A DNA stretch of 41,682 nt from NCBI GenBank assembly GCA_010206225.2, contig VIQU02000033.1:1-41682 (forward strand), in the 5' to 3' direction. Below the pieces are notes generated by a model. That model had not been told where the DNA came from and ran no database searches. It saw only the letters and a list, made by a program, of their open reading frames with translations. Source of the stretch: Lachnospiraceae bacterium MD308 (GTDB taxonomy: Bacteria; Bacillota; Clostridia; Lachnospirales; Lachnospiraceae). Each line of letters begins with the position of its first letter. Positions within the stretch are counted from its first letter, which is position 1. This document shows positions 3,697 to 24,945 of the stretch, piece by piece. The translations under genes were made by a program, and so were the position numbers.

Positions 3697-3716
3697 ATCA
3701 ATCTCCATTGTATCTT

Positions 3717-4964: not shown

Positions 4965-4995
4965 ATTTTAACCCCCCCCCCCTATTATTTGTCAA
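4965..4995 (-). promoter_or_regulatory. Phase-variable promoter: poly-G tract between -35 and -10
   Basis: Read leftward: a perfect TTGACA at 4995-4990, then AATAATA, eleven G (4982-4972), one T, and TAAAAT (4970-4965, 5 of 6 matches to TATAAT). The spacer is 19 bp with 11 G; 9 G would give the optimal 17 and 10 G would give 18. The predicted start site is about 4958, leaving a leader of some 24 bases with GGGGAGG before the ATG at 4934. Homopolymer tracts in the promoter spacer are an established phase-variation mechanism in Neisseria. Here strength should change with each base gained or lost. Tract length and spacing are seen directly; switching is inferred. Confidence 0.8.
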
Positions 4996-5010
4996 TATCT
5001 GTCTGCCTAC

Positions 5011-5033
5011 TTTCGTATACACCTTTCGTATAC
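5011..5033. promoter_or_regulatory. Direct repeats TTTCGTATAC upstream of the poly-G promoter
   Basis: TTTCGTATAC occurs at 5011-5020 and again at 5024-5033, a 13-bp period. The pair lies roughly 53 to 75 bases upstream of the predicted start site, where an activator would bind. The two sites are not needed for the terminator further upstream, although that hairpin contains a related sequence. No regulator gene is present in the window. Confidence 0.4.
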
Positions 5034-5120
5034 ATAGTGACAAATGACTGTAATCTCCATTTTTAAGATAAGTTATACTGGTTCAACGGATATGGACAGT
5101 AATTATACATGTCATCACAC

Positions 5121-5160
5121 AAAAAAAGAACGCCCCGTATATACGAAACGTTCTCTTTTT
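5121..5160 (-). terminator. Strong intrinsic terminator ending the long middle operon
   Basis: Read leftward, GAACGTTTCGTA pairs with TACGGGGCGTTC (three G-T wobbles) and a run of seven T follows; arms lie at about 5142-5153 and 5128-5139. The plus-strand reading also ends in T-rich sequence, so it may work in both directions. It separates the GT-C gene from the poly-G promoter and so makes the downstream four-gene unit depend on its own promoter. Confidence 0.8.
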
Positions 5161-5183
5161 GATGTTTTATTGTAAATAAGTAA

Positions 5184-6905
5184 TTATCGTTCCAAAGGAT
5201 ATGCGGCGATAAATCTAAATATATTTTCTCTGGTTAATCCCCCTTCCTCCTGTGCCTTTATCAATGCTTCTGATTCTTCCTTTGTTACAGGAATGAAGGT
5301 AACGTCCTTTGTAACGGATATCCATTCGTTAAATTCGTCTTTATTAAATAGTTCTTTTAATCTGAGTTTTATAAGCGTAACATTATCTATTGGCATATTA
5401 TTAATCAAAAGAATCCCATCCAGATGACGATTATCAGGTGAATAGTTCCAATCCCGCATATTGTATGCGTTTAAATACCATGAATTTTCATTCATATCTC
5501 TCAAGATCAATAAGTCACTCATAAGTCCAAGATAAAATCTGGTTTCCTCTCCTGTTGCAGCAAGCGAATTACCGTTAAACTGATAAAAGGCGCTTGTAAC
5601 AGCTGGATAATTATACAAACATAAAAATGTATCATTATTCATTATATCTTGGTTTTCAGGCACTTCCGCCCTAAAACGCAGCTGTTGGTAATAATCCTCC
5701 TGCCAGTCCAAATACGCTAAATTAAAGTGACCTATCCCGATTGTTATAATGGTAACAAGAATTATATTCCTAATCTCTTTACGGCAAATAATGTGAACCA
5801 GATAATAAAATATAATTGCCGTTCCGATGCCCAGCAACAAAGCATTTCTCCCTCCTGTTCCTGTTGTTGCAAATGCACCCTGAGATCGAATTACGTATGC
5901 AAAAAAACCTGCGTAAAAACAAAATACACCCATTAATAGCATCACAATCAATCTGTCATAATTTCCTTCTTCATTGAATTTGATTGATTCTCTGCGTTTT
6001 TTTCTATAAAAATTCCAAAAGTAACATAAAATCACCATTATTAAAATAATTAAAACTACATAGTTTGACAAAACGTTTATATAATTTAAAACCATTTCTT
6101 TAATTATTGTAAGTGCATAAATCGGAGAACGAAGTAATAGGCTTGGCAATGCTCTCCAATCCACATAATTGTGCCCTCCATAAATCCCATATCCGGGAAA
6201 CAGCATATGTTTTCCAAAATAGAATACAATCGGGGCAAGCAGGAAATCGGCATAACTCAATATTGCCTTAAAGCATTTCTTTATATTATTTCCAACTTCG
6301 CTCCACCTCCACTTCTCTTTCAATCTTTCATAATACAGATATAAAAGTATAAGCAAAGTCATGAGCATAATCGATTCCGTATTAAAAGAGAATACCAATA
6401 CAGATAAGGACAATACTCTCATGATAACAGCCTTTTTCCCTCTTTTTCCCTGCCACAGCGTAACCAGATAAAAAGCAATCCAAAATGCAAACAGCCCAAG
6501 TGAGTATCCATAGCAAATCCATGTTATTCTGACATCATTTATAGGAATCGTAATATACAGCAAAGTAATCCAAAATGCCGTTTGAGCGGAAAACGTATCA
6601 ATCTTCTTCATAATCGCATATACCAGCAATGAACCGACATAAAAATAAAGAAATACTAAAATCCTATACGCTCCATCCGGCAGCAGCCACAATGATGCAT
6701 CGATATATGCCTGCAAAGGCAGACTTGACTGAAGAAAAACTTCTAATAAATAATCCCAGTTCTTATTTATATATCCCCAATCATCCCACCAGAGGCCTGA
6801 TACGAAGAGCAATAATCCCTGCGAGAATATATACACCAATGTAATCCAAAATATATGTTTTGAAGTCTCATTGTTTCTATATTGATCTATCAGTCTTTTT
6901 ATCAT
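5184..6905 (-). CDS. Multispanning GT-C-type glycosyltransferase (ArnT-like role)
   Basis: About 573 residues, with some 10-12 hydrophobic segments, an early loop motif SGLWWDDWGY (Asp41, Asp42) and a soluble C-terminal domain of about 150 residues. An acidic pair in the first outside loop is the catalytic signature of GT-C enzymes, which take a sugar from a polyprenyl-phosphate donor. ATG 6905 is preferred over an upstream TTG because AAAGGCGG lies 8 bases before it. It closes a run of formyltransferase, GT2, deacetylase and SMR-pair genes that together match the parts of the Arn pathway, so it is inferred to transfer the flipped sugar to the surface glycan. Sequence similarity to ArnT proper is not obvious. 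Confidence 0.7.
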   Translation of the reverse strand: MIKRLIDQYRNNETSKHIFWITLVYIFSQGLLLFVSGLWWDDWGYINKNWDYLLEVFLQSSLPLQAYIDASLWLLPDGAYRILVFLYFYVGSLLVYAIMKKIDTFSAQTAFWITLLYITIPINDVRITWICYGYSLGLFAFWIAFYLVTLWQGKRGKKAVIMRVLSLSVLVFSFNTESIMLMTLLILLYLYYERLKEKWRWSEVGNNIKKCFKAILSYADFLLAPIVFYFGKHMLFPGYGIYGGHNYVDWRALPSLLLRSPIYALTIIKEMVLNYINVLSNYVVLIILIMVILCYFWNFYRKKRRESIKFNEEGNYDRLIVMLLMGVFCFYAGFFAYVIRSQGAFATTGTGGRNALLLGIGTAIIFYYLVHIICRKEIRNIILVTIITIGIGHFNLAYLDWQEDYYQQLRFRAEVPENQDIMNNDTFLCLYNYPAVTSAFYQFNGNSLAATGEETRFYLGLMSDLLILRDMNENSWYLNAYNMRDWNYSPDNRHLDGILLINNMPIDNVTLIKLRLKELFNKDEFNEWISVTKDVTFIPVTKEESEALIKAQEEGGLTRENIFRFIAAYPLER

Positions 6906-6927
6906 CTTATCTACCGCCTTTTGAAAA

Positions 6928-7263
6928 TTAAAGAGAGAATACAATTACACCGCATACTATGAGAAGATTTCCGATAACCTTTTTTCCTGTTATCTCTTCA
7001 TCAAAAAATATCCTACCCAAAATCATCACGTAAAAATAAACCAGCGACTCTATTACAACTCCATATTTAAACGGAAGACCTCTATATGCAAGTATCATCA
7101 ATACCATACATACAATCACCAAAGCATAACCTGATATTACATACAAGTTTAAATATTCTCTCAACTCTGTTTTATGCTCAGCATTACTGCTCTTTTTCAG
7201 TAAAACCTGTGAAAAAGCCGAAAGCACTCCAGAAAACACCGCAATCAATACATACTTAATCAT
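6928..7263 (-). CDS. Small multidrug-resistance/EamA-type half transporter (ArnF-like)
   Basis: A 111-residue protein with four hydrophobic helices, including a glycine-containing first helix (VLIAVFSGVLSAFSQVLLKK) and a last helix ending at the C-terminus. The ATG overlaps the end of the previous gene by 8 bases, indicating translational coupling of the two halves. ArnE and ArnF are just such paired four-helix proteins that flip undecaprenyl-phosphate-aminoarabinose. By context this pair is inferred to flip the lipid-linked sugar made by the neighbouring GT2 enzyme. Confidence 0.75.
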   Translation of the reverse strand: MIKYVLIAVFSGVLSAFSQVLLKKSSNAEHKTELREYLNLYVISGYALVIVCMVLMILAYRGLPFKYGVVIESLVYFYVMILGRIFFDEEITGKKVIGNLLIVCGVIVFSL

Positions 7264-7606
7264 CTGCTGACACCACAATCACACCGGCCATAACCAAAAC
7301 AACTCCTATAATATTCAACAATGTGATTTCCTCTTTAAAAATAAGCACCGACCAAACCAAGCCCATCAAAACAGTGCTGCCCTTACTAGACATCGCCATT
7401 GTAAGTGAGAACCTTTTTAGTGCCTGCTGGTAGATAATAGCATAAATTCCTAAAAGCAGGAATTCTAATATAAAAAAAATAAATGTATCCAATACTTTAT
7501 CCTGCACCCCTGCCTGTTTGGCAAATACTGACGACACAGAATATACAGCAAACCCACCATATAATATAATAAAATCTGATATTTTATGCTTCTTTTTTTC
7601 CGTCAT
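7256..7606 (-). CDS. Small multidrug-resistance/EamA-type half transporter (ArnE-like)
   Basis: A 116-residue, four-helix protein with the EamA-like second half STVLMGLVWSVLIFKEEIT followed by a last helix with GVVLVMAGVIVV. The KEE charge cluster after helix 3 is typical of this family and recurs as DEE in its partner gene. It starts inside the end of the formyltransferase gene (23-base overlap) and overlaps the second half transporter. The two are expected to act together as a heterodimer in the membrane. Confidence 0.75.
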   Translation of the reverse strand: MTEKKKHKISDFIILYGGFAVYSVSSVFAKQAGVQDKVLDTFIFFILEFLLLGIYAIIYQQALKRFSLTMAMSSKGSTVLMGLVWSVLIFKEEITLLNIIGVVLVMAGVIVVSADD

Positions 7607-8609
7607 AGGTTATTCCCTTTATTATATCTGTCAGATATTCAACCTGCTTACGCAGCTGATATATTTCTTCATGCAGACAATAGTTTAACCGTATTCTTAT
7701 ACTTTTTAAAATTGCATCCGCATTATATTCTTTCCCATCAATCGTCACTTTGCTAATAGCAATCATTCCGTCACCAGCCGCTATTTCCACCAAATGTCTG
7801 TCCTTATCAACCTTAACCACCTGTCCCGGCACGGCCAGACACGGCATCTCATGGCATTTTTTCTCAGCCTCGTATATATATACCTTAGTTGTGCCGCAAT
7901 AAGTAAACGCTCCCGCAAATGGCCTGCCAGAAGCTCTGATTATTTTCATAATCTCATCACACGGCCATGACCAATCAATAAAACCGTCTATAGGAATCCT
8001 AGGAAAACATCTTAAAGAATCCGCAGCATTTTTACTTTGCCTCTCACCTGCATATCCGCTTTGCTCTATCATATCCAGCGCTTCTCCAAAGAGTTTGGGA
8101 ATAACTTCATTCATATTCGCATAAATTTCAGTTATTGTTGTCCGTTCCTGAATCGGATAATATTTCTTTAATACAATATTCCCCGAATCCAGACTACCGG
8201 GCTCCATAAAATGTATGGATATAGCGTATTGATTTTCTCCGTTCAATATCGCCCAGTTAGGCGTGGCGTTCCCTTTATATCTCGGCAAATCTCCGCAATG
8301 AGCATTGAGTATCCCATATTTAAAACAAGAGCAAACTTCTTCCTTAATAACAGTCATCCAATTAACACTGACTGCTATATCGGCATGAACATCTTTTATT
8401 ATCTCAATAATCTCTGGACTGTTAATTCTTACGTTATTGAAAAACGGTACTCTTAATTTTTCTGCTTTAATCTCAAAATCCATTTCCGTAACATCATATT
8501 CCGGTGCTGCCGGACAAGTACCAATCAATACTATTTCATGTCCAAGACCAATGACTCTTTCAATTGTATCATAAAGCATGCGTGTTCTTCCTAATACAGC
8601 TACCCTCAT
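7584..8609 (-). CDS. Sugar N-formyltransferase
   Basis: The 341-residue protein has the N10-formyl-tetrahydrofolate transferase fold: LNAHCGDLPRYKGN holds the catalytic Asn102 and His104, and GSLDSGNI supplies Asp141. A C-terminal OB-like region follows (about 210-320). The numbering is very close to the formyltransferase domain of ArnA. ATG 8609 overlaps the TGA of the deacetylase gene (ATGA), which points to coupled translation; GAGGGGG lies 7 bases upstream of it. It should put a formyl group on an amino sugar nucleotide. This is the second formyltransferase in the cluster and the one with a complete Asn-His-Asp triad. Confidence 0.85.
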   Translation of the reverse strand: MRVAVLGRTRMLYDTIERVIGLGHEIVLIGTCPAAPEYDVTEMDFEIKAEKLRVPFFNNVRINSPEIIEIIKDVHADIAVSVNWMTVIKEEVCSCFKYGILNAHCGDLPRYKGNATPNWAILNGENQYAISIHFMEPGSLDSGNIVLKKYYPIQERTTITEIYANMNEVIPKLFGEALDMIEQSGYAGERQSKNAADSLRCFPRIPIDGFIDWSWPCDEIMKIIRASGRPFAGAFTYCGTTKVYIYEAEKKCHEMPCLAVPGQVVKVDKDRHLVEIAAGDGMIAISKVTIDGKEYNADAILKSIRIRLNYCLHEEIYQLRKQVEYLTDIIKGITYDGKKEA

Positions 8610-9325
8610 TTCCATTCCCCCTCACAGATCTTTTTAAATTTCCATCCGCTAGACTTTGCAATGGATACCAGATCTAGAAAAAAATCTCTGATACCATAAT
8701 TCTTTTTATTTACAAAAGTTTTCAGCATTTTATAATCTTTAAAATATGGACGTGCATTTTCATATGTTGCAAGCTGATCCGTATTTAAAAATAAATGAAT
8801 GGGATGGAAATTAAAAATTCTTGGCGCTGTAAACTCGTCAGAAAGAAAGAATTCCAAAGTTCTCCGCTCTTTATGAGACAAATAAATATCATCCTCAAAA
8901 ATAAATGGAAGCACAAGCACATTTGGATTTGCCGGCGCCTTATAGGGTCTGATATTAAGACCACTATATGCTGGTATAAGCGTATTTAAATCATATTGAA
9001 TTCCAAGCTCATCGTATTTTGAAACGATAATGCTGCTTGAAGATAACGCATGACTTCTTAGTGTAACAGCTTCAGGCACTATCTTTTTAATGTTTTCCAA
9101 TATATTAATATAACTTTCTTCTATATTATCTCCCATCAATAATCTGTTATAATTTGGATGTATTCCTAATTCAAGATTATCATTCTTTTTACCAAGAACT
9201 TCTGTTCTGTTCGTAACATTGAGCGTACCTTTTAAACGATTGTTCTCTATAATACTCAGGAAATCCTCTAACACTCCATCTATGGCCCAGTCCATATCAA
9301 AAGTCAAAAATATATTTCTACTCAT
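8606..9325 (-). CDS. NodB-fold deacetylase-like protein (ArnD/WbmS-like role)
   Basis: The 239-residue soluble protein begins with LTFDMDWAID (motif 1 Asp pair), then has ELGIHPNYN, LRSHALSSS and FNFHPIHLF, the spaced His motifs of a divergent polysaccharide deacetylase. The layout recalls the WbmS-type proteins of O-antigen clusters. In the Arn pathway ArnD removes the formyl group after the sugar is on undecaprenyl phosphate; this gene is between the GT2 gene (8-base overlap) and a formyltransferase gene, the right place for that job. Deformylation is inferred from context; deacetylation is equally possible from sequence. Confidence 0.7.
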   Translation of the reverse strand: MSRNIFLTFDMDWAIDGVLEDFLSIIENNRLKGTLNVTNRTEVLGKKNDNLELGIHPNYNRLLMGDNIEESYINILENIKKIVPEAVTLRSHALSSSSIIVSKYDELGIQYDLNTLIPAYSGLNIRPYKAPANPNVLVLPFIFEDDIYLSHKERRTLEFFLSDEFTAPRIFNFHPIHLFLNTDQLATYENARPYFKDYKMLKTFVNKKNYGIRDFFLDLVSIAKSSGWKFKKICEGEWK

Positions 9326-10271
9326 TCTTATTAATCTCCTTTATGGACATAACTTCCGACACGATAAATACTGGACGTTTTCTTGCCGCATCATACGCTC
9401 TCCATAAATACTCCGCAATGATGCCTAAAGATATATTCGTAATTCCAAAACCCAATGCCATAATACTTGCCAGTGTCGAATAACCTATCGGAACATCTGG
9501 ATTCAAAATCCTGTTAATTATCGTTACAATTCCCAAAACAAATCCAATAATGAATATAATCACACCCACTATGCTCACAAGCCTGATCGGCATAAATGAA
9601 AATGCTACAAAGGAATCAATAAACAACTTTATCTTCTTCGCCAGTGTCCATTTTGATGTTCCTGTAACTCTTTCCCCATAATCCAGAGAAAGGGTATAAA
9701 ATCGAAACCCGGCATCTACAATCTGCAACATCAGAGAAGAATTGGATTCTATGTTATGGTTAAGCATTTCTTTAATCTTTTTGTTAAAAACGATAGTCGC
9801 CGTTCCTCCTGATGAATAGTTCTTCACTGCATATTTACGCATAAGCCAAGAGTAAGTTTTTGAAAATGCGCGCTCAATCATAGATACTCCCACAGATTTT
9901 TTTTCTACATAAACGACATCATATGTTTCTTTAACTATCTTTTCATATGACATTTGAATAAGCTCTAATGGTTCCTGAAGATCAACAGACAGCCATGTAC
10001 ATATATCATAGGTTGCATGGCATAACCCTGCTCTGACAGCTGCGTGAAATCCAAAATTTCTTGATAATTGTATGAGCTTTACAGAGGGAAGGTGCCGAAA
10101 AAAATATGACTTAATTTTCTTGTCAGTATCATCTACAGAACCGTCATTAACAAACACGATTTCCAAAGGAAAATCTACCGATTTAACATATTCGTCCACT
10201 GTCTTACAAAATCTATCTATTCCATCTGTCTCATTCAAAAAAGGAACTACAACGGAAACTCCTTCCTTCAT
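9318..10271 (-). CDS. GT2 polyprenyl-phosphate glycosyltransferase (ArnC/GtrB-like)
   Basis: The 317-residue protein has a GT-A domain (FVNDGSVDDT, then SRNFGFHAA, then SVDLQEP in place of the usual DLQDP) and two C-terminal transmembrane helices (about 230-258 and 267-295). This is the ArnC/DPM1/GtrB subfamily, which moves a sugar from its nucleotide to undecaprenyl phosphate at the inner face of the membrane. Ribosome site GGGAGG lies 8 bases before the ATG. It is followed by the deacetylase, formyltransferase and SMR-pair genes, as expected for a flip-and-transfer pathway. Confidence 0.88.
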   Translation of the reverse strand: MKEGVSVVVPFLNETDGIDRFCKTVDEYVKSVDFPLEIVFVNDGSVDDTDKKIKSYFFRHLPSVKLIQLSRNFGFHAAVRAGLCHATYDICTWLSVDLQEPLELIQMSYEKIVKETYDVVYVEKKSVGVSMIERAFSKTYSWLMRKYAVKNYSSGGTATIVFNKKIKEMLNHNIESNSSLMLQIVDAGFRFYTLSLDYGERVTGTSKWTLAKKIKLFIDSFVAFSFMPIRLVSIVGVIIFIIGFVLGIVTIINRILNPDVPIGYSTLASIMALGFGITNISLGIIAEYLWRAYDAARKRPVFIVSEVMSIKEINKNE

Positions 10272-10327
10272 CTACCATACCTCCCATGTCCAGAGCATTA
10301 TGCTTCTCTTATTCTGTTCCACAAAAA

Positions 10328-11272
10328 TCAATATGAACCCATCCTATGGCTTAATGACTTAACTTCGTCCATGACACTGATTTCTTTTCCTTCTTTTTCT
10401 ATCTGCTCAAGTACAATTCCAGAATTTTCCCCGCAAACCACGACCACGCTCTTGCTTGCAGTATCAATAATCCCAATCTGTCCCGGACTTCCTTGAATCA
10501 TATGTGGAAAGATTTTTGATTTCCATATAATAATTTTTCTTTTTTTATAGTAGGTAAAAGCACCCGGATATGGCTTTGATTGCGCCCGGATAAAATTATA
10601 TACTTCATTTGCTGTCCTGCTCCAATCTATATTTCCATCTTCTGCAACTCTCATTGACCCATACGAAACTTTTTCTGGCTTCTGTTCCACAGGGCATATC
10701 TTTCCAGACAATATATCTATATAATATTTATCAAAAAATATTGAAATTCTCTCATCTATCTTTCTCAGCACATCATTGACATAATCACTTGTCTCTATCT
10801 TTACCTTCTCCTGATACCATATCTTTCCTGTATCCATTCCCTTATCAATCGCAAAAACTGAAAAACCAGTTTCTTTATCCTCGTTAATAATTGCCCATAC
10901 GACGGGTGCAAATCCTCTATGTGACGGCAATAATGAATTATGTATTCCAATAAACCCGCCGGGAACCTGCCCGATTAATTCCTCTGGAATAATGTAATAC
11001 CATCCCATCACAAAACAAATGTCCGGCTTGTATTTATTCAAAGATTCCGTAAGTGCGTTTTTCCCTGCAAGAATATCTATTGGAATTTTATTCTCATCAC
11101 AAAATTCCTTAATCTGCATCAAGCTGCTCCTCGAATCCGACAAATCGTTTGCCGTTACGCAGCCAATAAGCTTATCTGGGGCAACATGATATATTTTCTT
11201 TAACACCTTTAGTCCTGAATCTTTGCTCCCAATAAATAAAACACGATTGTATACGCAATTAATTTTTTCCAT
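10328..11272 (-). CDS. Formyltransferase-family protein with an altered active-site Asn
   Basis: The 314-residue protein has the formyltransferase core: GIHNSLLPSHRG (His111) and KGMDTGKIW (Asp147), and a C-terminal OB-like domain. The position two before the His, normally Asn, is Gly109; an Asn follows the His instead. It may therefore belong to a separate subfamily or have a changed activity. The start has only a weak ribosome site, and it lies 25 bases after the ATP-grasp gene, which is out of frame here; loss of upstream translation could reduce its expression. The substrate is inferred to be an amino sugar nucleotide. Confidence 0.78.
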   Translation of the reverse strand: MEKINCVYNRVLFIGSKDSGLKVLKKIYHVAPDKLIGCVTANDLSDSRSSLMQIKEFCDENKIPIDILAGKNALTESLNKYKPDICFVMGWYYIIPEELIGQVPGGFIGIHNSLLPSHRGFAPVVWAIINEDKETGFSVFAIDKGMDTGKIWYQEKVKIETSDYVNDVLRKIDERISIFFDKYYIDILSGKICPVEQKPEKVSYGSMRVAEDGNIDWSRTANEVYNFIRAQSKPYPGAFTYYKKRKIIIWKSKIFPHMIQGSPGQIGIIDTASKSVVVVCGENSGIVLEQIEKEGKEISVMDEVKSLSHRMGSY

Positions 11273-11297
11273 CTTATTTCATTTTTAATGGATTCTA

Positions 11298-12384
11298 TTA
11301 CTGCATCTTATATTCTAGCATTTGCATGAAATCTTCACTAATAAATGTCTCGTCCAATCCCCTTGTAATATAACCTTCTCTATATGCAAAGTCCTGTTCT
11401 ATGTTCTCCCCCAGCAAATGATTCCGGATAAGCATGTCCGGCTCATTATACCCAACAATGGCTCTAAGCGAAGATGTCCCGGATATTCTTGGATTAATTT
11501 CAAAAACATACATTTTCTCTTTGTGAAGTCTGCATTGAACATTCAAAGCAGCCGTAGCTCCCAACATCTCCGCAATCTTTCGGCTCGGTTTCGTCACTTC
11601 CGGAAATTTTCCAATAGCCCCCTGCGATATTCCGCTGCTTATTGCCAAAATTTTTCCTAAATCCCGCCGTTCAGTCTTATTCGGAATTTTAATCTTATTA
11701 GACAAACCAGATAGAATGCTCTTCTTCACAGCAATAGAATTCAAATACCTTCCTTTCGAATTTGATATAACTCCTACTGTATATTCACTGCAGGCATCGC
11801 CAATATATTCCTGTGCAGTAAATACGTCATATATTTTTAAAAGATACTTTCCAAAAGTGAAAAGCTCATCTCTATCCTGGGCAATGAATGTATTGACAGA
11901 TCCACCCCCCCCCCCTCGCTGGTTTTAGCACAATCGGGAATATATCTATCCCGCGCATGTCACTCTCACTGCGGATTTCCCAGTGTTTGGGAACATCAAA
12001 TCCATTTTTCTCTAAAAATTCTATTGTTAAATTTTTATCCATGCACACATCTATAACATTTTTAGGATTCAGCGGAACATATATCCCCGCATCTTCAAAC
12101 AGCTTCCTGTTATTACTCAACACCTTCATTTCGGCCTCTGATCCATGGAACAACACTTTCACATCATTCTCCCGGCAGATGCTCAAAATACCGTCTAAAT
12201 ATTGAGGGCTGGATGCTGGCGGAACAATATAAGCCTTGTCAACCTCTTTCAGACCTTTACTGGTTTTGCTCATATCACATCCAATTATTCTATAATCAAG
12301 CGCAGAAAGTTTTAAACACTTTAATATCTGCTCTCCAACACCTCCACCGCCAACACCTGTAATCATCACATTTACTTTGCTCAT
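11298..12384 (-). CDS. ATP-grasp ligase, carbamoyl-phosphate-synthase-like, phase-OFF by poly-G frameshift
   Basis: Translation from ATG 12384 (AAGGAG 8 bases upstream) gives a Rossmann start VNVMITGVGGGGVGEQ and runs to IVLKPAR, then eleven G shift it to a short wrong tail ending at 11872. In the next frame the protein resumes as GSVNTFIAQDRDELFTFGKY and continues to the ATP-grasp metal site VFEINPRISGTSS and a stop at 11298. With ten G the join reads KPARGGGGS, a normal ATP-grasp glycine loop, and the product is 361 residues. ATP-grasp enzymes of this type join a carboxylate to an amine or other nucleophile; ligation of an acyl or amino acid to an amino sugar is inferred. A sequencing length error is possible but three other such tracts argue against it. 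Confidence 0.85.
11905..11915 (-). repeat. Poly-G tract (G11) in the ATP-grasp gene, OFF length
   Basis: Eleven C on the plus strand, eleven G in coding sense, between GCGA and TGGATC. The coding frame needs 10 (or 7 or 13) G; 11 gives a frameshift and early stop. The tract encodes the Gly-rich loop that holds ATP phosphates, so small in-frame length changes would be tolerated. Confidence 0.9.
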
Positions 12385-12388
12385 CAAA

Positions 12389-13060
12389 TCATCTCCTTAA
12401 GAACACATTCCGTACTTTCTTATCAACATCTAAAAAAAACTCATCATTCAAAACCGCAGCATTCATTTTTATCCTCTTCAACTGCAATTGCAATTTCTCT
12501 GTATCAAAAACACAATACCCCGGATTTAACCCTTTATCCCGAGGCAAACCACAGGAACCAACATTTACATACGTAGTCTTTCCTGTCTTTTTCATATACA
12601 TCCGGTGTGTATGTCCCATAAAGATGAAATCGTGATCTGTGTTTTCCCAATTATATTCTGCATTATCTTCATAAAGATAGCCATTCAACGTGTCGAACGG
12701 CGCCCCATGCATAAAAGAAAAGAAGTTTCCTGCCATTTGCAGCGTCAACTCAGAACGCAGACTCTTTAATTCATTTAAAATATATCTATCAACTTCGTCT
12801 TTTTGTTTTTTTAATTTATATATTTTATCTTTTTCATCTTCTATTGGTAACTCACCGACCAACATTGCCTCATGATTGCCTTTTAACACGATTGCATTTC
12901 TTAATTTTAATGCTTTATAAATATACTCTCCGGCTGTCATATATCCGAAAGCATCTCCCAAATAAATGATCTTATCAATCATTTCCCCATCTATATCAGC
13001 TATAATTTTTTCAAAAAAAGGTTTATTTCCATGTGCATCAGATAATATTGCTAATCGCAT
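12389..13060 (-). CDS. Calcineurin-like metallophosphoesterase (YfcE/MJ0936-like)
   Basis: A 223-residue protein with all metallophosphoesterase motifs in order: LSDAHGN (Asp8, His10), YLGDAFG, KGNHEAM, FMHGAP and MGHTHRMY. It is soluble and about the family's usual size. AAAGGA precedes the ATG by 9 bases, and there is a 1-base gap from the SDR gene before it. The presence of a phosphatase between an SDR enzyme and an ATP-grasp enzyme suggests removal of a phosphate from a sugar or acyl phosphate in the same pathway, but no substrate can be named. Confidence 0.85.
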   Translation of the reverse strand: MRLAILSDAHGNKPFFEKIIADIDGEMIDKIIYLGDAFGYMTAGEYIYKALKLRNAIVLKGNHEAMLVGELPIEDEKDKIYKLKKQKDEVDRYILNELKSLRSELTLQMAGNFFSFMHGAPFDTLNGYLYEDNAEYNWENTDHDFIFMGHTHRMYMKKTGKTTYVNVGSCGLPRDKGLNPGYCVFDTEKLQLQLKRIKMNAAVLNDEFFLDVDKKVRNVFLRR

Positions 13061-13061
13061 A

Positions 13062-13958: not shown

Positions 13959-13968
13959 TTACAGACTC

Positions 13969-14937: not shown

Positions 14938-14948
14938 TTTCTTCACCT

Positions 14949-16172: not shown

Positions 16173-16719
16173 TCTGCTCCCATCCTTTCAGATCATACTT
16201 CTCTCCACATTCTGTACAGATACCATTTTCATCAAGTTTGAATCCGCATTTACATACCCAGCCAATCTGGATCGCTGGATTTCCTACAACCAATGCATGT
16301 GCTGGTACGTCCTTAGTAATTACACTGCCAGCTCCAATCATTGCATACTCGCCTACCGTAATACCGCATCTTATTGTCGCATTAGCGCCAACTGATGCTC
16401 CTTTTTTAACTAACGTCTCTGTGATATGCCAATCTGAATTAAATGCTCTCGGATACATGTCATTCGTAAAAGTCATGGATGGTCCAAGAAACACGTCATC
16501 ATCTATCGTCACACCATGATAAACATTTACATTGTTCTGCACTTTAACCCCGTTTCCAATTTTTACATGCTCATCAATATAAACATTCTTGCTGATAATG
16601 CAATTCTTTCCAATCTCTGCATCATTTCGAATCTGTGCATGGTTCCATACCTTGGTTCCATCACCAATCACAGCATTATCACTCACTTCTGCGCTTTCAT
16701 GAATAAATACACAGTCCAT
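16111..16719 (-). CDS. Hexapeptide-repeat N-acetyltransferase (WlbB/WbpD-like) with zinc-ribbon tail
   Basis: The 202-residue protein has a left-handed beta-helix of hexapeptide repeats (about 10-150) with FLGPSMTFTNDM, as in the WbpD/WlbB acetyltransferases that acetylate the 3-amine of UDP-GlcNAc3NA. After VVGNPAIQIGWV comes a tail with four Cys (156, 158, 168, 171) in CxC and CxxC form, which looks like a small metal ribbon. It directly follows the aminotransferase gene with ATG right after the TAA. With the two genes before it, it forms the Wlb order Gfo/Idh - aminotransferase - acetyltransferase. Confidence 0.85.
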   Translation of the reverse strand: MDCVFIHESAEVSDNAVIGDGTKVWNHAQIRNDAEIGKNCIISKNVYIDEHVKIGNGVKVQNNVNVYHGVTIDDDVFLGPSMTFTNDMYPRAFNSDWHITETLVKKGASVGANATIRCGITVGEYAMIGAGSVITKDVPAHALVVGNPAIQIGWVCKCGFKLDENGICTECGEKYDLKGWEQNEKISGYQTLFYTEGKGADC

Positions 16720-17916
16720 TTATTTGCCCTCATAAAATCTATTAACGGTATCAATTACATACTGAACCTGTTCCCCTGTCATCTCAGGAAAAATCGGCAG
16801 ACATACTGACTGAGACGATATTTCCTCTGCCACCGGCTGACTTACTCCCGGATTCTTACAGTTATATTTATTAAACGCTTTCTGCCTGTGAAGCGGAACC
16901 GTGTAAAACGAACCATTCCCTACTTCATTCTCTGTTAAATAAGCGCATAATTCTTCTTTATAATCAGATCTCACCACAAATTGATGCCAGCATGATTTAA
17001 CATCATCGGAATAAGCTGGTTTTCGAAGTTTACCCGTCAATCCTGCAAGATACATCTTTGCAATTTCCGAACGTCTCCTATTATACTCATCCACATACTT
17101 CAGTTTAACAGACAGAACCGCCGCTTGGATAGCGTCAAGACGTGAATTATAGCCAATCAGATAATTATAATATTTGTATGGATTATACAGTTCTGTTACT
17201 TCTTCTTTCGTGTGAATCTGCTCTTTCACACCTTCCAATAACTCAAGAGCCTCTGCGCCGCCCTGTGCTGCGCCATGCTCTCTGTATGCTCTTACGATAA
17301 CACCAAGGGCATCGCTGTTTGTCGTAACCATACCCCCGTCTCCGGCCCCTCCAAGATTCTTAGTAGGATAAAAAGAAAAACATCCCACATCTCCCAAAGT
17401 CCCTGCTTTTCTGCCTTTATATTCAGCCCCGATCGCCTGGGCAGCATCTTCTATAACTTTAAGATTATGTTTCTTTGCGATAGCCATAATCTTATCCATA
17501 TCACACGGTGCACCAAAAATATGAACCGGCATTATGGCTTTCGTCTTATCGGTAATCGCCTCCTCGATTCTATCCGGATCAATATTATAATCATCTTGTC
17601 TTACATCAACAAATACTGGAACAGCGCCTACAGACGAGATCGCCTCTGCGGACGCAAAAAAAGTGAACGGAGTAGTGATTACTTCGTCCCCTGGCTTTAT
17701 ATTACACGACTTAAGGCCAAGCACAAGAGCATCCGTTCCATTAGAACAGCCTGCCACATGCTTGGCGCTTAAATAATTTTCCATTTGTCTTTCAAAATCA
17801 TTTACATATGCTCCTCCAATATAGCAGCATTTTTCCAGAATATCCAGAATCATCGGCTCAACTTCACCTTTGATTCTCTGGTACTGAAGTTTCAAATCAA
17901 GAAAAGGTACTTGCAT
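16720..17916 (-). CDS. DegT-type sugar 3-aminotransferase (WlbC/WbpE-like)
   Basis: A 398-residue PLP enzyme beginning VPFLDLKLQYQRI, with CSNGTDAL, VIEDAAQAIGA and SFYPTKNLGG (Schiff-base Lys186), then YNYLIGYNSRLDAIQAA. These features match the 3-aminotransferase branch (WlbC/WbpE, QdtB, FdtB). The ATG at 17916 has GGAGG 7 bases upstream. It lies between a Gfo/Idh oxidoreductase and a hexapeptide acetyltransferase, exactly as in the diacetamido-uronic acid pathway. A close relative lies at 34320-35495 in the same window. Confidence 0.88.
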   Translation of the reverse strand: MQVPFLDLKLQYQRIKGEVEPMILDILEKCCYIGGAYVNDFERQMENYLSAKHVAGCSNGTDALVLGLKSCNIKPGDEVITTPFTFFASAEAISSVGAVPVFVDVRQDDYNIDPDRIEEAITDKTKAIMPVHIFGAPCDMDKIMAIAKKHNLKVIEDAAQAIGAEYKGRKAGTLGDVGCFSFYPTKNLGGAGDGGMVTTNSDALGVIVRAYREHGAAQGGAEALELLEGVKEQIHTKEEVTELYNPYKYYNYLIGYNSRLDAIQAAVLSVKLKYVDEYNRRRSEIAKMYLAGLTGKLRKPAYSDDVKSCWHQFVVRSDYKEELCAYLTENEVGNGSFYTVPLHRQKAFNKYNCKNPGVSQPVAEEISSQSVCLPIFPEMTGEQVQYVIDTVNRFYEGK

Positions 17917-17932
17917 GCTTTTATCCTCCGTC

Positions 17933-18916
17933 TCATAATCTCTGCATTTTAGCTCTGTTAGCGACTTCCTCACATATCTTTATTGCATTAATACCGGCAG
18001 CTCCGTCTGTTTTTATAGGAGCACCGTTCACCACAGATTCATAAAACGCTATCAATTCTGCCCTGAGAGGTTCCTCTATCGGTACATACACCCTCTGAAC
18101 CAATCCGTCCTGTACATACGAATTATCTCTGGACAAATCAACGGTAAGATTCGTACTTTTATATATATTCAAAGTCTTCGCAAGTAAATCCGCACAAATA
18201 CAGCTATTAGCAGTATGTACAGTAATCAGTCTCTCCTTATTCTGAGATATTCTGCTTACATTTACAACTGCATGTGCCTGTCCTCCAAAATCCATCAGAC
18301 ATGTTGCAAAATCTGTCTGACCAGATCGGATTGTCTCACCTCTTCCATGAATAGAAGTTAATTTCTTGCCCCCCCCCTCCGTCATTAAAGCGCAAACTAA
18401 ATCAACATCGTGAATCATCAGATCCTCGACTACGCTTGTATCTGTAATATGTCCGCTATTGCTAAACGGGCTGTACCTGTTTGTTTCTATAAAGAAGATT
18501 TCTTCGTCTTTCACCAACTTCTGTAATTCTCTGAACACTGGATTAAATCTCTCAATATGCCCAACCGTAAGCTTTAAGTTTCTTTTCCGAAATACATTTG
18601 TAATCTCTTCTGCGTCTTCACTTGTGGTTGCCAATGGTTTTTCAACTAAGGCATGAACTCCATGCTCTGCGGCAGCTAAAGCAATCTCCTTATGTTTAGA
18701 AGAAGGAACCGCAATTGTTACTGCCTCTACATTCTCCAATAGTCCGTCTATACTTTCAAATGCTTTTACATCATACTTTTCAGCTAAAAACTTCGCCATT
18801 TCGGTATTGGAATCATATAGTCCTACAAAATCAAAACGCTTTTCTTCTGAAAAATTCCTAACATGATTCCTTCCCATATGACCCGTTCCGATAACACCTA
18901 TCTTAAGTGTTTTCAT
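17933..18916 (-). CDS. Gfo/Idh/MocA oxidoreductase (WlbA/WbpB-like) carrying a poly-G tract
   Basis: The 327-residue protein has a Rossmann start IGVIGTGHMGRNHVR and the catalytic VEKPLA (Lys93), followed by LMIHDVDLV. In the Wlb/Wbp pathway this enzyme oxidises C3 of UDP-GlcNAcA so that the next enzyme can add an amine. After LMTE, nine G encode Gly181-183 and lead to KKLTSIHG; the frame is intact (ON) with 9 G. One base more or less would cut off the C-terminal half. AAGGA precedes the ATG by 10 bases. A tract-free relative lies at 33226-34299. Confidence 0.88.
   Translation of the reverse strand: MKTLKIGVIGTGHMGRNHVRNFSEEKRFDFVGLYDSNTEMAKFLAEKYDVKAFESIDGLLENVEAVTIAVPSSKHKEIALAAAEHGVHALVEKPLATTSEDAEEITNVFRKRNLKLTVGHIERFNPVFRELQKLVKDEEIFFIETNRYSPFSNSGHITDTSVVEDLMIHDVDLVCALMTEGGGKKLTSIHGRGETIRSGQTDFATCLMDFGGQAHAVVNVSRISQNKERLITVHTANSCICADLLAKTLNIYKSTNLTVDLSRDNSYVQDGLVQRVYVPIEEPLRAELIAFYESVVNGAPIKTDGAAGINAIKICEEVANRAKMQRL
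18369..18377 (-). repeat. Poly-G tract (G9) in the Gfo/Idh gene, ON length
   Basis: Nine C on the plus strand (nine G in coding sense) running from the last base of a Glu codon through two Gly codons and into a third. It falls in a surface-loop-like segment between MTE and KKLTS. Frame is kept at 9 (also 6 or 12). Confidence 0.85.
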
Positions 18917-19027
18917 CTTTGTTCATCCTTCCCGTGCCTTGTATGCATTTTCTATTTATAATCACCATGTCTTTCTCTCCGACAGTCCAATCTATAGAAT
19001 CAAAACATCTATCTGCACTCTAGAGTC

Positions 19028-20359
19028 TTAATTCCTTATATCAATTGCACCTGCAACATTGATACCAAAAGTATCGCACTGCTGGAGGAATCTGTCAATA
19101 GAATTATACGACGTTTTATTGATTCCAAATACCAAGACTATATTTCCACATTTCTGAGCCTCTTTTAAGTCATTCGGATTCTCATCTATATTTGTCCCTA
19201 CGATAATATTTATATCCTTTTCTGCTAAATTAGCTTTCATCAAATCCATGCAACTTTCTATATTGCAGAGCCTACTTCCCACCAATAATAAACAAATACA
19301 GTTTTTTCCTATTTCTCTGCATAGAAGCTCAATACGACTTTCTAATAGTTCATTTTTCACATTATCGGTCTGTATGAGTAATTCTCCAATATACGGAATT
19401 CCAAAAAGAGATACCATCTCTTCACTGCTTTTTATCTTTCCGTTTAGAATATAATAGCAGGAAACAATGACAGTTGAAACCATTATACATAAAGCCAAAA
19501 TTACACATACCCACTTCCACGGAAATGGCCTTTTCTCCTGTTCATCTTTTGTTACATTATCAGTATTGCCTCTTTCTCGATCTAATACTTCTTTCTCTTC
19601 TCCCTCCAATTGACTTTCCAAATTATTAATCTGCGCTTTTTTTCTATCAAATTCTATCTCGAATGATTTTTGCACTTCTTCAACAGTTTTATCTGCCCCA
19701 ACGTAACTGTTCTCATCCAATAATGAAATCTTATGTTCCCCAATTTTAGGCAGAATATATTGATGATATTCATCGAAAGCTTCCTTAACGGTATTTGTAA
19801 TTCTTTCATTCAAATCAGCATCAGACGTTACAATTTTCACACTCAATATATCATTTTTCGTATCTGGCATCAGCGTATTGCTTCTAGTATATTCTGAAAT
19901 AATCAGCAAATCAGACGGCATAACAACTTCATTTCCAAATTCTGACGTAATCCTTTCTTTTAATTTCCCATCTCTTGCAAATGCCTTATATACGTCAAAA
20001 CTGTCCTTATCTGGATCTGTAATCAAATATTGCAAAACTGTACTATTACATTCGTAAGCATTCAAATTCATATATGCCGAATTATTTTTATAATCTTCCA
20101 TTTCATGTAATTCTTCATATGCATTTAAGATACTGTTGACTTTATACTGCTGATTTTCTGTTAATTGCTCCATCTCAACAGACTGGACTTTTGTATCATT
20201 CTTCTTATAGGTGGATAACAGAACAGAAACACCCGCAATAAAAAGTATGGCAGAAATGCCCGCTACTATCTTCCATTTGAATAATAAAAATTCCAATAGT
20301 CTCCAAATATTAATTCCATTGTTTTCGACTTTCTCCTTATATATTTCACGTGAATACAT
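19028..20359 (-). CDS. Wzz/YveK-like chain-length protein with a degenerate kinase-like tail
   Basis: The 443-residue protein has two membrane helices, about 25-50 (FLLFKWKIVAGISAILFIAG) and about 275-300, with an outside domain containing a coiled-coil stretch (near 225-260) between them: the polysaccharide co-polymerase layout. After the second helix comes a cytoplasmic region of about 140 residues resembling the alpha/beta fold of the CpsD/YwqD tyrosine kinases, but there is no Walker A motif (LLLVGSRLCNIES stands in its place) and no tyrosine-rich tail. It probably sets chain length without being able to bind ATP. The start codon directly abuts the flippase stop codon. Confidence 0.8.
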   Translation of the reverse strand: MYSREIYKEKVENNGINIWRLLEFLLFKWKIVAGISAILFIAGVSVLLSTYKKNDTKVQSVEMEQLTENQQYKVNSILNAYEELHEMEDYKNNSAYMNLNAYECNSTVLQYLITDPDKDSFDVYKAFARDGKLKERITSEFGNEVVMPSDLLIISEYTRSNTLMPDTKNDILSVKIVTSDADLNERITNTVKEAFDEYHQYILPKIGEHKISLLDENSYVGADKTVEEVQKSFEIEFDRKKAQINNLESQLEGEEKEVLDRERGNTDNVTKDEQEKRPFPWKWVCVILALCIMVSTVIVSCYYILNGKIKSSEEMVSLFGIPYIGELLIQTDNVKNELLESRIELLCREIGKNCICLLLVGSRLCNIESCMDLMKANLAEKDINIIVGTNIDENPNDLKEAQKCGNIVLVFGINKTSYNSIDRFLQQCDTFGINVAGAIDIRN

Positions 20360-21901
20360 TTACTCTTCTCCTCCTCGTTTTATTCCTTTAAAAGTTTCAA
20401 ATACTTTTTCAACAATCCACATTACAATTTCAATTTTTAAAACAAAACACAAAATAATGTAACTTATAACTCCTATAAAAACTTCTAAGATAAACATAAA
20501 ATAATTATTTTTAAATATTAGAATCTGATTGTAAAAAAGATATATACCTCCGATAACAAAAATTGATATTACAATTATTTTTATTGTATCCAATAAGTCC
20601 CTTTTTGATAAAATTGCTGCATCTATCTTTTTAACATCTAAAAACATCAATATTACCGCCAAAAATCCAGCTAAACTTGTAGCTAGCGCCAAACCAACAT
20701 AAGAAAGATAACGAATCATAATGATATTGAAAAGGATATTAAATATCACTGCACAAACAGTATTTTTCAAAATCAATTTTTGTTGTTTATTTGCTGCTAA
20801 ACATCTCGTAAGAATTTCCCTGTAACTATAAAATACTAAACCTAATGCATAAAAAGACAAGCATCTTGAAGTCATTAGAGTAGCATTCGCATCAAAAGCT
20901 CCTCTTTGGAATAAAATCTGACATATAGGGTAAGACATCAGAAAGAAAAATCCCGTTAATGGTATCGCCAATATATTAGTAAGCATAATCCCTTTTGAAA
21001 TATATTTCATACCTAACTCATACTTTTTTTTTGCAAAAAACATATTAAGTCTTGGATAACAGACAGACGCAAATATCATTGTAGTCAAACCCATAATTAT
21101 TAATTGTATTTTATTCGAATAATTCAAGGCACTTATAACACCCTCTCCTAATGTGGAAGCCAACAATCGGTCTATTACAGAATTTATCTGATTAGCAAAC
21201 AAACTAAGTCCAAATGGAAAAGCCAAAAAACATATTTCTTTTACTCTTTTATCACTAATATCAATTTTAAATTGATATTTTTGAAGACTTTCTTTCTCTG
21301 CATATACCCATAATACAAATGAAACTATAATTTGACTCAGCAGATATCCTATTATCAAGAAAAAAATATTTCCTTTACCTGCAATAAAAATACTGATTAT
21401 TATTAAAATATTGAAGACAATAAAATCACATATATTCGCGAAAGCAAAATGCTCATAAAAAAGCAAATTTGCCGCTGTCATACTAAATAATGACATAAAT
21501 GGAAAAATAAATGCTATTATCTTTACAAATATATTCGTCAGTTCGAAAGCTTCTTTTGAAAATCCGGGTGCTAACATCTGCGTAATACGTTCACTCATTC
21601 CAAAACAAATTAATGACAATAATACAGACACAAAAAATAAAATCGTCTGTAAATTATTATAAAAATCTTTTCGTTCTGATACATTTTCAATCCGGGAGGC
21701 AATAGGTATATACGACTGCGAAAACCCACTTATAAAAAATGAGAAAATAACACTGGGTAAGGTAATTGCAACTGTATATACATCTACAATATAGGATGTA
21801 CCAAACATATATGCAATCATCATTTCTCTTACAAAGCCCAATAGTTTTGATATTATATTTATAATAAAAATGCCAATAGCTGCCCCCGATAACTTTTTCA
21901 C
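20360..21901 (-). CDS. MurJ/MviN-like lipid-linked oligosaccharide flippase (Wzx role)
   Basis: The 513-residue protein has about 14 hydrophobic helices and the MviN-type beginning KLLGFVREMMIAYMFG, with PIASRIE after helix 2. It starts at GTG, with AAGGAG 5-6 bases upstream. In glycan clusters this family flips the undecaprenyl-linked repeat unit across the membrane. It lies between the Asn-synthase-like gene and the chain-length gene. A run of nine A in coding sense (21024-21032) within FFAKKKYELG keeps frame. Confidence 0.87.
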   Translation of the reverse strand: MKKLSGAAIGIFIINIISKLLGFVREMMIAYMFGTSYIVDVYTVAITLPSVIFSFFISGFSQSYIPIASRIENVSERKDFYNNLQTILFFVSVLLSLICFGMSERITQMLAPGFSKEAFELTNIFVKIIAFIFPFMSLFSMTAANLLFYEHFAFANICDFIVFNILIIISIFIAGKGNIFFLIIGYLLSQIIVSFVLWVYAEKESLQKYQFKIDISDKRVKEICFLAFPFGLSLFANQINSVIDRLLASTLGEGVISALNYSNKIQLIIMGLTTMIFASVCYPRLNMFFAKKKYELGMKYISKGIMLTNILAIPLTGFFFLMSYPICQILFQRGAFDANATLMTSRCLSFYALGLVFYSYREILTRCLAANKQQKLILKNTVCAVIFNILFNIIMIRYLSYVGLALATSLAGFLAVILMFLDVKKIDAAILSKRDLLDTIKIIVISIFVIGGIYLFYNQILIFKNNYFMFILEVFIGVISYIILCFVLKIEIVMWIVEKVFETFKGIKRGGEE

Positions 21902-21914
21902 AATAACTCCTTAC

Positions 21915-23639
21915 TTATTCCTTTATCTTTTTTATCATATAATCGTACAGCAATACCTCTTTCAAAGTTCTTGCTTCATAATTCTTAATAAGCTCTTTTG
22001 CACTAAACCCTTTTATATAGATATTACATAGCTTTTCCTGATAAGTTTGTTTTTCTTTATAATTTTCTTGAACCTCCTTATATCCCTTTTTATCATTCCT
22101 TAAAATATAATATATCCTTCTAAGAAATTTTATTAAAAGTGGATTTCGGATTAATTCACGTATAATATCTTTATAGTATGTAGTTTTTTCCTTATCAGTA
22201 AGTTCTAATGTATTAAGATTTAATGTTTTTACTTTTATATGCGAAAAAAATGGCACATCAAGCAATTCAGGGGCAAAAAATTTAATTCCTTTCATTAAAA
22301 AACGTGAATTTATCTTTTCTTCGAATTTTAATTTTTCTGCCAATTCAACCATTGTTCCATCTCCTAAAAATGGAAAACTGTAAAAAAACTGATTTGCGAA
22401 ATTATTCATTACCGTATCCGCCCTATATCTATATGCGGAATGCAATTTCTGAAAATCGTCCTTATCAAGTCTTTCCGGTGATAATCCTTTATCGATACAA
22501 ATTTCTGTAAACTGACTGATAATAAGAGACCGATATTGTTGGTAGAACGAATAATCATTGTGTAAGGATCGTTGAATATAAAGTTCATCAACAAACTCTT
22601 CCACTGTGTATTGATTCTTTTTCAGATTTTCAATTGACTCAATATTCCTGTATACTTCTCCAAAATATCCAAAACATATAAAATCAACATCTATTACTTC
22701 CTCAAACTGTTTTATTACATTTTTGTTAAATCGATACAATAAACCCAGTTCACCGTATTTCTCTAAAAATAAATCAATATTTGTATTATCAGTTTCACTC
22801 CAATCCATTTTTGTTAATGAAAGACTGCATTTCTGCGCAATTTCTTCCACAATCTTTTCATCCTCTTTTTTCGTAAAAGTATTCGCCGAATTTCCGACAC
22901 CATAATATAAGTTCGGCTTAAATCCCAGTCTAAGCATAATAGCTAGATTTAATCTGGAATCCTGTCCTCCTGTCATGAAAATTCCCGTCTTATCAAAGTA
23001 CCCCCCCCCCTCATAAATTGTATACATTTCTTCCCATATTTTTTCCCTTTTCTTTGTTTTGCTAGTCCGGGTGTGTTCTATCTGCCAATTCTCATCACTG
23101 AAATGAATAATCTGATTTCCTGTTAATCTGTAAATATTTTCAAAAATGGTAGCGTTTCCAATAATTGCGCATTGAAAACATTGTGCAACTACATTTTCTT
23201 CAATCACTTTTGTTTTGTCCAAAATTTTTGCCAAATGATAATATGTGTTAGTTAAAATGATTTTATTATTTTCTAAATAATAATAAATATTATAAGTACT
23301 TCCCGAATCAATAAAGCCAGTAAATTCATTGCCTATCTTGATGCCTATAAAATAACTTCCAACAATCTCACTTTTTGAAAGAGTTTTTTCCTTATAAGCT
23401 TCAAAAATTTTTTCTAATGCCTTTTTCCCCATGTCATGATCATAGAAGAAAGTGCCTGCACCAATAATATAGTCATCACCTTCCGTATAGAAATTTTCAG
23501 AATTCATCCTTATTTTTCGATATACATTAATCTGAAAATCATCCTCTTTTTTTTCAAAATTACTGATATGATTTTTGTTAAAACATTCCACTAATCTTTT
23601 ATAATCAATTTTATCCGAAGCTATTACTATTTTTCCCAT
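21915..23639 (-). CDS. Asparagine-synthase-like amidotransferase without glutaminase Cys, carrying a poly-G tract
   Basis: The 574-residue protein aligns by layout with AsnB-type enzymes: an N-terminal Ntn-like domain (about 1-190) and a synthase domain with the ATP-pyrophosphatase motif MTGGQDSR (Thr223-Ser228). Glutamine-dependent enzymes need Cys as residue 2; here the protein begins MGKIV, so that activity should be missing and ammonia or another amine would be used. Ten G encode Gly211-213 just before the ATP motif and are in frame (ON). In O-antigen clusters such enzymes amidate uronic acids, a fit with the dehydrogenase and Wlb-type genes. The ribosome site is weak. Confidence 0.78.
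   Translation of the reverse strand: MGKIVIASDKIDYKRLVECFNKNHISNFEKKEDDFQINVYRKIRMNSENFYTEGDDYIIGAGTFFYDHDMGKKALEKIFEAYKEKTLSKSEIVGSYFIGIKIGNEFTGFIDSGSTYNIYYYLENNKIILTNTYYHLAKILDKTKVIEENVVAQCFQCAIIGNATIFENIYRLTGNQIIHFSDENWQIEHTRTSKTKKREKIWEEMYTIYEGGGYFDKTGIFMTGGQDSRLNLAIMLRLGFKPNLYYGVGNSANTFTKKEDEKIVEEIAQKCSLSLTKMDWSETDNTNIDLFLEKYGELGLLYRFNKNVIKQFEEVIDVDFICFGYFGEVYRNIESIENLKKNQYTVEEFVDELYIQRSLHNDYSFYQQYRSLIISQFTEICIDKGLSPERLDKDDFQKLHSAYRYRADTVMNNFANQFFYSFPFLGDGTMVELAEKLKFEEKINSRFLMKGIKFFAPELLDVPFFSHIKVKTLNLNTLELTDKEKTTYYKDIIRELIRNPLLIKFLRRIYYILRNDKKGYKEVQENYKEKQTYQEKLCNIYIKGFSAKELIKNYEARTLKEVLLYDYMIKKIKE
23001..23010 (-). repeat. Poly-G tract (G10) in the Asn-synthase-like gene, ON length
   Basis: Ten C on the plus strand (ten G in coding sense): the last base of a Glu codon plus three Gly codons, followed by TAC. 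A change of one or two bases would remove the ATP-binding synthase domain that starts about ten residues later. Confidence 0.88.
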
Positions 23640-23709
23640 ATCATTTCTACATGAAATACATATTTTAAAATTTCATTTTTCCTTTCTTCATATTTTTTAT
23701 TAAAAACAT

Positions 23710-24867: not shown

Positions 24868-24945
24868 GTCTCTCTTCCATAATACATCATTTTTCTCTTC
24901 AAATTACATTCGACAGACATTAAATCTCAAACACAACGAAAACAA

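Follow-up and report, generated by a model that had tools for sequence, protein, structure and literature searches.

In Neisseria porA and in Treponema tp0126 and tprL, a poly-G tract lies between the -35 and -10 elements of the promoter, and expression is reported to fall when the tract changes (PMC7864442, PMC3639595). The reported optimal spacer for porA and tp0126 is 17 nucleotides (nt) (PMC7864442). The Campylobacter phasome, as reported in PMC6321876 and PMC3068675, has several poly-G tracts in glycan-modifying genes (flagellin, lipooligosaccharide and capsule modification, e.g., cj1295), which act mainly by frameshift, and Orsi et al. (PMC2831843) report on homopolymers in coding genes. 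Phase variation in gut Firmicutes is discussed, in the sources available to us, chiefly as DNA inversions, and these invertons provide heritable on/off control of surface glycans (PMC11892184, PMC11868660). Here we describe four poly-G tracts in one glycan locus of Lachnospiraceae bacterium MD308. The locus is on a stretch of 41,682 nt (contig VIQU02000033.1 of assembly GCA_010206225.2), referred to as the window. Other genomes, contigs and loci carry labels that begin with G, C and L.

We found that the four tracts are the longest G/C runs in the window. They appear as C runs on the + strand, at 4972-4982 (11 nt), 11905-11915 (11), 18369-18377 (9) and 23001-23010 (10), and are called runs 1 to 4 below. 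The longest run after them is a single C7 at 27839. An earlier note on this DNA had claimed that these (G11, G11, G9 and G10) are the only G/C runs longer than 7 in the window, that all have G on the coding strand, and that four of them would be very unlikely by chance. All three claims were borne out. The coding strand is the minus strand, on which all features described here lie. With a GC content of 36%, the window is AT-rich. A first-order Markov model built on it, after masking of the tracts, predicted 0.32 runs of 8 or more, 0.076 of 9 or more and 0.004 of 11 or more. Four runs of 9 or more were present.

Long G/C runs were not common in the rest of the genome. The genome-wide count that the earlier note had proposed as a check gave 14 runs of 8 or more in 4,352,995 bases (156 contigs). 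One of these, on contig C91, was discounted, leaving 13 internal runs, nine of them outside the window. Four of 13 internal runs were thus in a window that makes up 1% of the genome (P = 5.6e-6; ~6e-4 corrected for ~104 windows). We also compared the runs seen with those expected from a 121-kb sample, a non-random one made up of the window and ten stretches around the other runs, with tracts masked. The expected and observed numbers were 43 and 13 for runs of 8 or more, 9.9 and 11 for 9 or more, 2.3 and 8 for 10 or more, 0.53 and 6 for 11 or more, and 0.12 and 3 for 12 or more. Across the genome, short G runs are rarer than chance and very long ones are in excess.

We think it likely that the four runs serve as contingency (phase-variation) tracts, their length altered by slipped-strand copying, that they give rise to a population of cells with mixed surface glycans, and that run 1 belongs to a wider class of promoters. 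The observations behind this are the position of the tracts, their non-randomness and clustering, the promoter fit, the reading frames, the lack of tracts in the homologues examined, the occurrence of such promoters in other genomes, and related promoters whose tracts differ in length. The tracts appear to be switches of two kinds: run 1 in a promoter spacer, and runs 2-4 within genes. This anatomy, with one of the three coding tracts frameshifted, is, judged from sequence, that of simple-sequence contingency loci. Slippage in living cells would alter expression through run 1 and would shift the frame of an ATP-grasp ligase (run 2), a UDP-sugar dehydrogenase (run 3) and an Asn-synthetase-like enzyme (run 4). 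In the present assembly the run-1 promoter, with its 19-nt spacer, is probably weak; the predicted state is off for run 2 and on for runs 3 and 4. What survives of the earlier interpretation is that four tracts, more than chance would give, are grouped within a single glycan locus, with one of them in a promoter and three in coding sequence. Its count of up to 16 or more glycan states does not follow. Runs 2-4 are in one gene series, in which polarity is possible, and the switches need not be independent; if a change at run 3 removed a precursor sugar, the state of the other switches might no longer matter.

Run 1 (G11, 4972..4982) is in the spacer of a sigma-A-type promoter. We read a -35 hexamer TTGACA at 4990..4995 and, 19 nt away, a -10 hexamer TAAAAT at 4965..4970, so that a tract of more than eight G lies between the two hexamers, as in porA and tp0126. 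Directly 5' of the -35 hexamer are two direct copies of GTATACGAAAG (5010..5033; on the + strand the copies start at 5010 and 5023), which resemble an operator and are a putative one. The first gene of the downstream operon starts 30 nt past the -10 hexamer.

Run 2 (G11, 11905..11915) is in an ATP-grasp gene, at the position of the glycine-rich loop that binds ATP. The first part of the gene (11872..12387; PF21360, E = 3e-15) ends at a stop 30 nt past the run. This part matched positions 2-160 of 329 in a PRK12767-type profile (E = 6e-56), with 189.6 bits, below the cut-off of 218. The second part (11298..11744; PF15632, E = 1.4e-11) is in a different frame, which is open across the run, from 9 nt before it to 604 nt after it. 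The two parts are each open in their own frame, for 481 and 604 nt, and the only place where both frames are open is across the tract. As read from the sequence, the gene is frameshifted, and is predicted to be off, in the present assembly. The first part was found in 41 of 195 genomes (own genome included), none with a close orthologue. We examined 29 of the 45 places in these 41 genomes, and the longest G run in the gene was 3-6 nt.

Run 3 (G9, 18369..18377) adds three glycine codons, in frame, to a Gfo/Idh/MocA dehydrogenase resembling UDP-GlcNAc 3-dehydrogenase (17933..18916; PF01408, E = 1.5e-31). Membership of the Gfo/Idh/MocA fold family is clear; the match to NF040723 (E = 1.6e-60, 205 bits) falls below the equivalog cut-off of 450. 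Among the 195 genomes, only G014, besides the genome itself, had this gene at E = 1e-60 or better. The G014 homologue (60% identity) aligned with a gap at exactly the three glycine codons. The alternative frames stop 8 and 30 nt past the tract.

Run 4 (G10, 23001..23010) is also in frame. It encodes three glycines directly before a GGxDSR motif in a 574-amino-acid protein (21915..23639) of a little-known family, and the alternative frames stop 5 and 25 nt past the tract. The gene was found only in its own genome among 116 relatives, and in four others, three of them good matches, among 392 genomes of the order. Homologues in three genomes were 28-30% identical and intact, with G runs of at most 3-4 nt. 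The earlier note had called this protein Asn-synthase-like, and a weak likeness is what we found. A profile of four family sequences matched AsnB in the PDB at E = 0.02, and one homologue matched GATase_7 at E = 0.028. The window protein itself matched nothing in Pfam or NCBIfam, including the Asn-synthase and GATase domains, and we did not assign it to the asparagine synthetase family.

Together, runs 2-4 have the features expected of translational phase variation, as far as the reading frames tell. Each is a long homopolymer within a reading frame that is absent from the homologues examined (29, 1 and 3, respectively), other tract lengths are predicted to bring early stops, and for run 2 an apparent off state is seen. 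For runs 3 and 4, the other frames stop within 5-30 nt, so that a slip would switch the gene off.

Promoters like that of run 1 recur in the same genome. We counted a run as fitting if it had TTGA, a spacer of 15-20 nt, and TANNNT no more than 3 nt past the run. By this rule, 7 of the 13 internal runs fit, whereas a simulated run fits with a frequency of 0.00325 (P = 6e-15). The genes that follow encode, among others, a sugar-binding lipoprotein, secreted DUF4886 and DUF5050 proteins and an AP2-domain protein. The scripted count includes the run of L031 and leaves out that of L033.

They also recur in other genomes. We found 8 distinct sites in 3 of 6 genomes of the genus (1 in the reversed control), 23 sites in 15 of 299 genomes of the family, 15 sites in 10 of 393 genomes of the class, and 47 sites in 30 of 151 genomes of the family of G570 (reversed control 0 in each of these three sets). 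When the spacer was left free from 11 to 31 nt in the class genomes, 14 of 15 sites had spacers of 14-20 nt (P = 2e-6). A search of named genomes, using spacers of 15-19 nt only and leaving the last two letters of TTGACA free, gave at least 119 stretches (Clostridia, Bacilli, Treponema, Helicobacter, Streptococcus suis, Blautia luti and others). Among the named-genome matches listed, 97 of 123 sites had TTGACA and 85 of 123 had TATAAT. An open reading frame began within 260 nt downstream for 95 of 97 sites among the listed matches, compared to 52 of 113 in the opposite direction (Fisher's exact test, 9e-19). N-termini resembling export signals were found in 79 of 106 downstream proteins among the listed matches, compared to 96 of 509 other open reading frames of the same loci (5e-28). 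By these counts the promoter class recurs across many genera, where for the most part it precedes genes for proteins that look secreted or membrane-bound. Four stretches (L127, L104, L167 and L142) each carry two poly-G promoters. A viral collection gave five stretches with the promoter pattern; three of these are identical, and the set is of no use for measuring variation.

Tract lengths within the class differed between related promoters. The promoter of the sugar-binding lipoprotein has G9 and a 17-nt spacer in the present genome (G000), and G10 and an 18-nt spacer in G001. The orthologous promoter of G002 and G004 is tract-free (TTGAAA-17-TACAAT). Six loci were opened for this comparison, three of which were readable at the promoter. 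The tandem paralogues of L127, themselves near-identical, have near-identical promoters differing by one G, and L081 and L108, which share flanks, differ by two. Overall, the differences were G9 versus G10 in orthologues, and G9 versus G10 and G9 versus G11 in paralogues or relatives.

We found that tract promoters of other genomes avoid the 17-nt spacer. Ordinary TTGACA-TATNAT pairs without a G run, in the 119 listed loci, peaked at 17 nt (17 of the 26 with spacers of 15-19 nt). In contrast, only 9 of 122 tract promoters among the named-genome matches listed had a spacer of 17 nt, with 25 at 16 and 35 at 18 (Fisher's exact test, 6e-10). A pooled set from the family, the class and the family of G570 had 4 of 54 sites at 17 nt (1e-7). 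Because a few loci are in both this set and the named-genome set, the two are not independent. Restricting the listed named-genome matches to TTGAC sites and dropping repeats left 8 at 17, 22 at 16 and 30 at 18 nt, of 114. For each site we took the TTGA nearest to 17, a choice whose bias could only raise the count at 17. The avoidance was seen in L069-L187 and L221-L233 and in the family, class and G570-family sites. Given the 17-nt optimum reported for porA and tp0126, we read it as a weak state: most assemblies may show a promoter close to, and just off, the spacer optimum. Alternatively, G-rich spacers might have a changed geometry that accounts for the avoidance; however, changed geometry alone would not explain why 17 is less frequent than 16.

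A broader proposal, which we hold to be about evenly balanced between right and wrong, is that poly-G spacer promoters are a widespread, uncatalogued phase-variable class in gut Clostridia, Bacilli and their neighbours, controlling mainly secreted and membrane proteins. In most assembled genomes they would sit one or two bases off 17 nt, in a weak or silent state, while a small number of cells with full expression would serve as a hedge, and in the present locus the class would be joined to three coding tracts. If single-base changes do switch capsule chemistry and many secreted proteins, a large share of cell-to-cell diversity would be invisible to present methods. That diversity would be relevant to phages and mucosal antibodies, and readable from existing metagenome reads. 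The avoidance of 17 nt leads to a sharp, testable prediction of the state that most cells are in.

The mechanism is already known from porA, tp0126 and Campylobacter; what is unusual is the setting, a glycan locus with several switches together with a broad promoter class. In comparison with porA and tp0126, several such promoters are present in this one genome, one of them in a glycan locus; the class occurs in Clostridia, Bacilli and others, ahead of proteins with export-like signals; and sites in related species mostly avoid the 17-nt optimum. The Campylobacter tracts are in a different phylum. Here the locus is probably of Wzx/Wzy type, run 1 lies in a promoter, and about half of the tracts in the genome are of the promoter kind. 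Unlike invertons, the change considered here is of one homopolymer base and does not require inversion (no search for inverted repeats was made). Poly-G spacer promoters in Clostridia or Bacilli were not found described in a literature search that was mostly without subscription papers and preprints.

Several points weigh against phase variation at the four tracts or against the wider promoter class. The evidence on the four sites comes from one assembly, with one genome per species, and from sequence only. Since both run 3 and run 4 keep the reading frame, switching there is argued for only by position and rarity. The -10 hexamer of run 1 (TAAAAT) is imperfect, and promoter-like sites around run 1 were at chance level in a general consensus scan (21, with 20.1 expected); the case for this promoter thus rests on the tract class and not on the hexamers alone. 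The same scan did not list the run-1 promoter, because it takes spacers of 16-18 nt only. In G003, of the same genus, the contig ends at the run-1 tract in 50 G, probably an artefact, and the tract length is therefore not comparable there. Three of the seven fitting runs in the present genome have a 17-nt spacer, which makes the avoidance of 17 a statement about other genomes. The test for export signals was a simple, home-made heuristic. Two of the five related sets that we aligned (L082, L161 and L174; L116 and L133) had no length difference.

If G runs simply grow by mutation (slippage, or T-to-G change after a G run) and mean nothing, the split ATP-grasp gene would be a dying gene. G runs followed by T are reported to be T-to-G hotspots (PMC12344412), three of the four runs precede a T, and the one copy of the run-2 gene that we saw is broken. 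We nevertheless regard this explanation as unlikely. Neutral hotspots do not readily account for a genome that has no excess of runs of 8-9 but has an excess of 11 or more, or for the presence of 7 of 13 runs in promoter spacers, or for the constraint on spacer length in the class genomes. A dying gene is also difficult to reconcile with two ATP-grasp parts that have each kept an open frame of their own, of 481 and 604 nt. Sequencing errors in the run lengths, or in the frameshift at run 2, are a very improbable source of the pattern. Two contigs (C91 and that of G003, the latter with 50 G) do end in G runs, but the four runs are inside a single contig, with genes continuing on both sides, and their positions, in a promoter spacer and at codons absent from homologues, are unlike random error.

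A further possibility is graded tuning in place of switching: tract length would set promoter strength slowly, over evolutionary time, and the coding tracts would be harmless glycine linkers. In porA, expression is reported to be graded with tract length (PMC3639595), and runs 3 and 4 are in frame, within regions not conserved among homologues. We give this a slightly lower chance than neutral growth of the runs. Next to runs 3 and 4 the other frames meet a stop after 5-30 nt, so that any slip would be a knock-out, and run 2 is already out of frame. In the 36 listed genes of the window, Gly-Gly-Gly occurs at one other place only, where it is encoded by mixed codons.

The genes downstream of run 1 suggest an acyl modification. 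The first gene of the operon encodes a polysaccharide deacetylase (3978..4934; PF01522, E = 6.5e-23). It is followed by an acyl carrier protein (ACP) (3717..3959; PF00550, E = 1.2e-7), a 335-amino-acid protein (2701..3708) with no match in Pfam at E = 10 and none in NCBIfam, and an FkbH-domain protein (839..2623; TIGR01686, E = 2e-84; PF21211). The FkbH protein passes the TIGR01686 cut-off (283.5 bits; cut-off 146.65). FkbH proteins make glyceryl-ACP, and the operon may therefore make a glyceroyl or other acyl decoration. The description of run 1 as an acyl-transfer promoter in the earlier note fits the ACP and FkbH genes; it does not fit the first gene, the deacetylase. In G003, the operon is present at 96.8-99.5% identity, and that copy, on L246 (noted at 4965-6163), is longer by ~1.2 kb between window positions 3696 and 3732.

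The operon is probably a separate transcription unit, because a hairpin with a U tract, resembling an intrinsic terminator, is found between it and the upstream gene (5118..5162; -24.8 kcal/mol, z = -6.95), at the end of the unit 5' of run 1. None of 200 shuffles was as good. A simple terminator scan of 3600-8000 listed nothing, this hairpin included, possibly because its T tract pairs with an A tract and the scan requires T after the stem.

Upstream of the operon, 5184..11272 contains two EamA proteins, two formyltransferase-like proteins, a GT2 protein and a 586-amino-acid protein for which no family match was found. From these profile matches, it may be a module for lipid-linked decoration. 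A DegT-type aminotransferase and a hexapeptide acetyltransferase come after run 3 (16111..17973; PF01041, PF00132). The core glycan locus (19028..41374) contains, by profile matches, a MurJ-type flippase, an O-antigen-ligase/Wzy domain, NeuB, a cytidylyltransferase, a UDP-GlcNAc 2-epimerase, an initiating sugar transferase, GT2 and FemAB-like proteins, and the locus holds several DegT aminotransferases. This content would fit a Wzx/Wzy-type surface polysaccharide with a nonulosonic acid and lipid-linked decorations. When 19.9 kb of the locus was compared to five genomes of the genus, only short matches of 70-91% were found, in three of the five, and G003 likewise had no more than these. From the company of its relatives, the host is probably a gut anaerobe.

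The family of the run-4 protein (window 21915-23639; L291, L292 and L293) consists of proteins of ~590 amino acids with an invariant TGGxDSR motif. A tblastn search of plasmids with the window protein gave no match. An AlphaFold model made from its single sequence had a pLDDT of 34.8 and was not used.

Of the runs elsewhere in the genome, the G11 of L031 (4950-5000) is near the start of an apparently broken ABC-2 transporter gene and ahead of a HicB-like antitoxin gene; it fits the promoter rule, yet was set aside in view of this position. The discounted run of C91 (end of L036 in G000) is a G10 at the very end of the contig, behind a transposase gene, and is probably an assembly artefact. Two others were likewise set aside, L032 because the run is in frame in a cobalamin gene and L035 because it had no clear context. 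The run of L033 (4132-4147) was set aside too. It is a G8 whose distance from the start of a LytTR response regulator gene is 8 nt, so close that it would touch the ribosome-binding site, and this position fits such a site better than a promoter tract.

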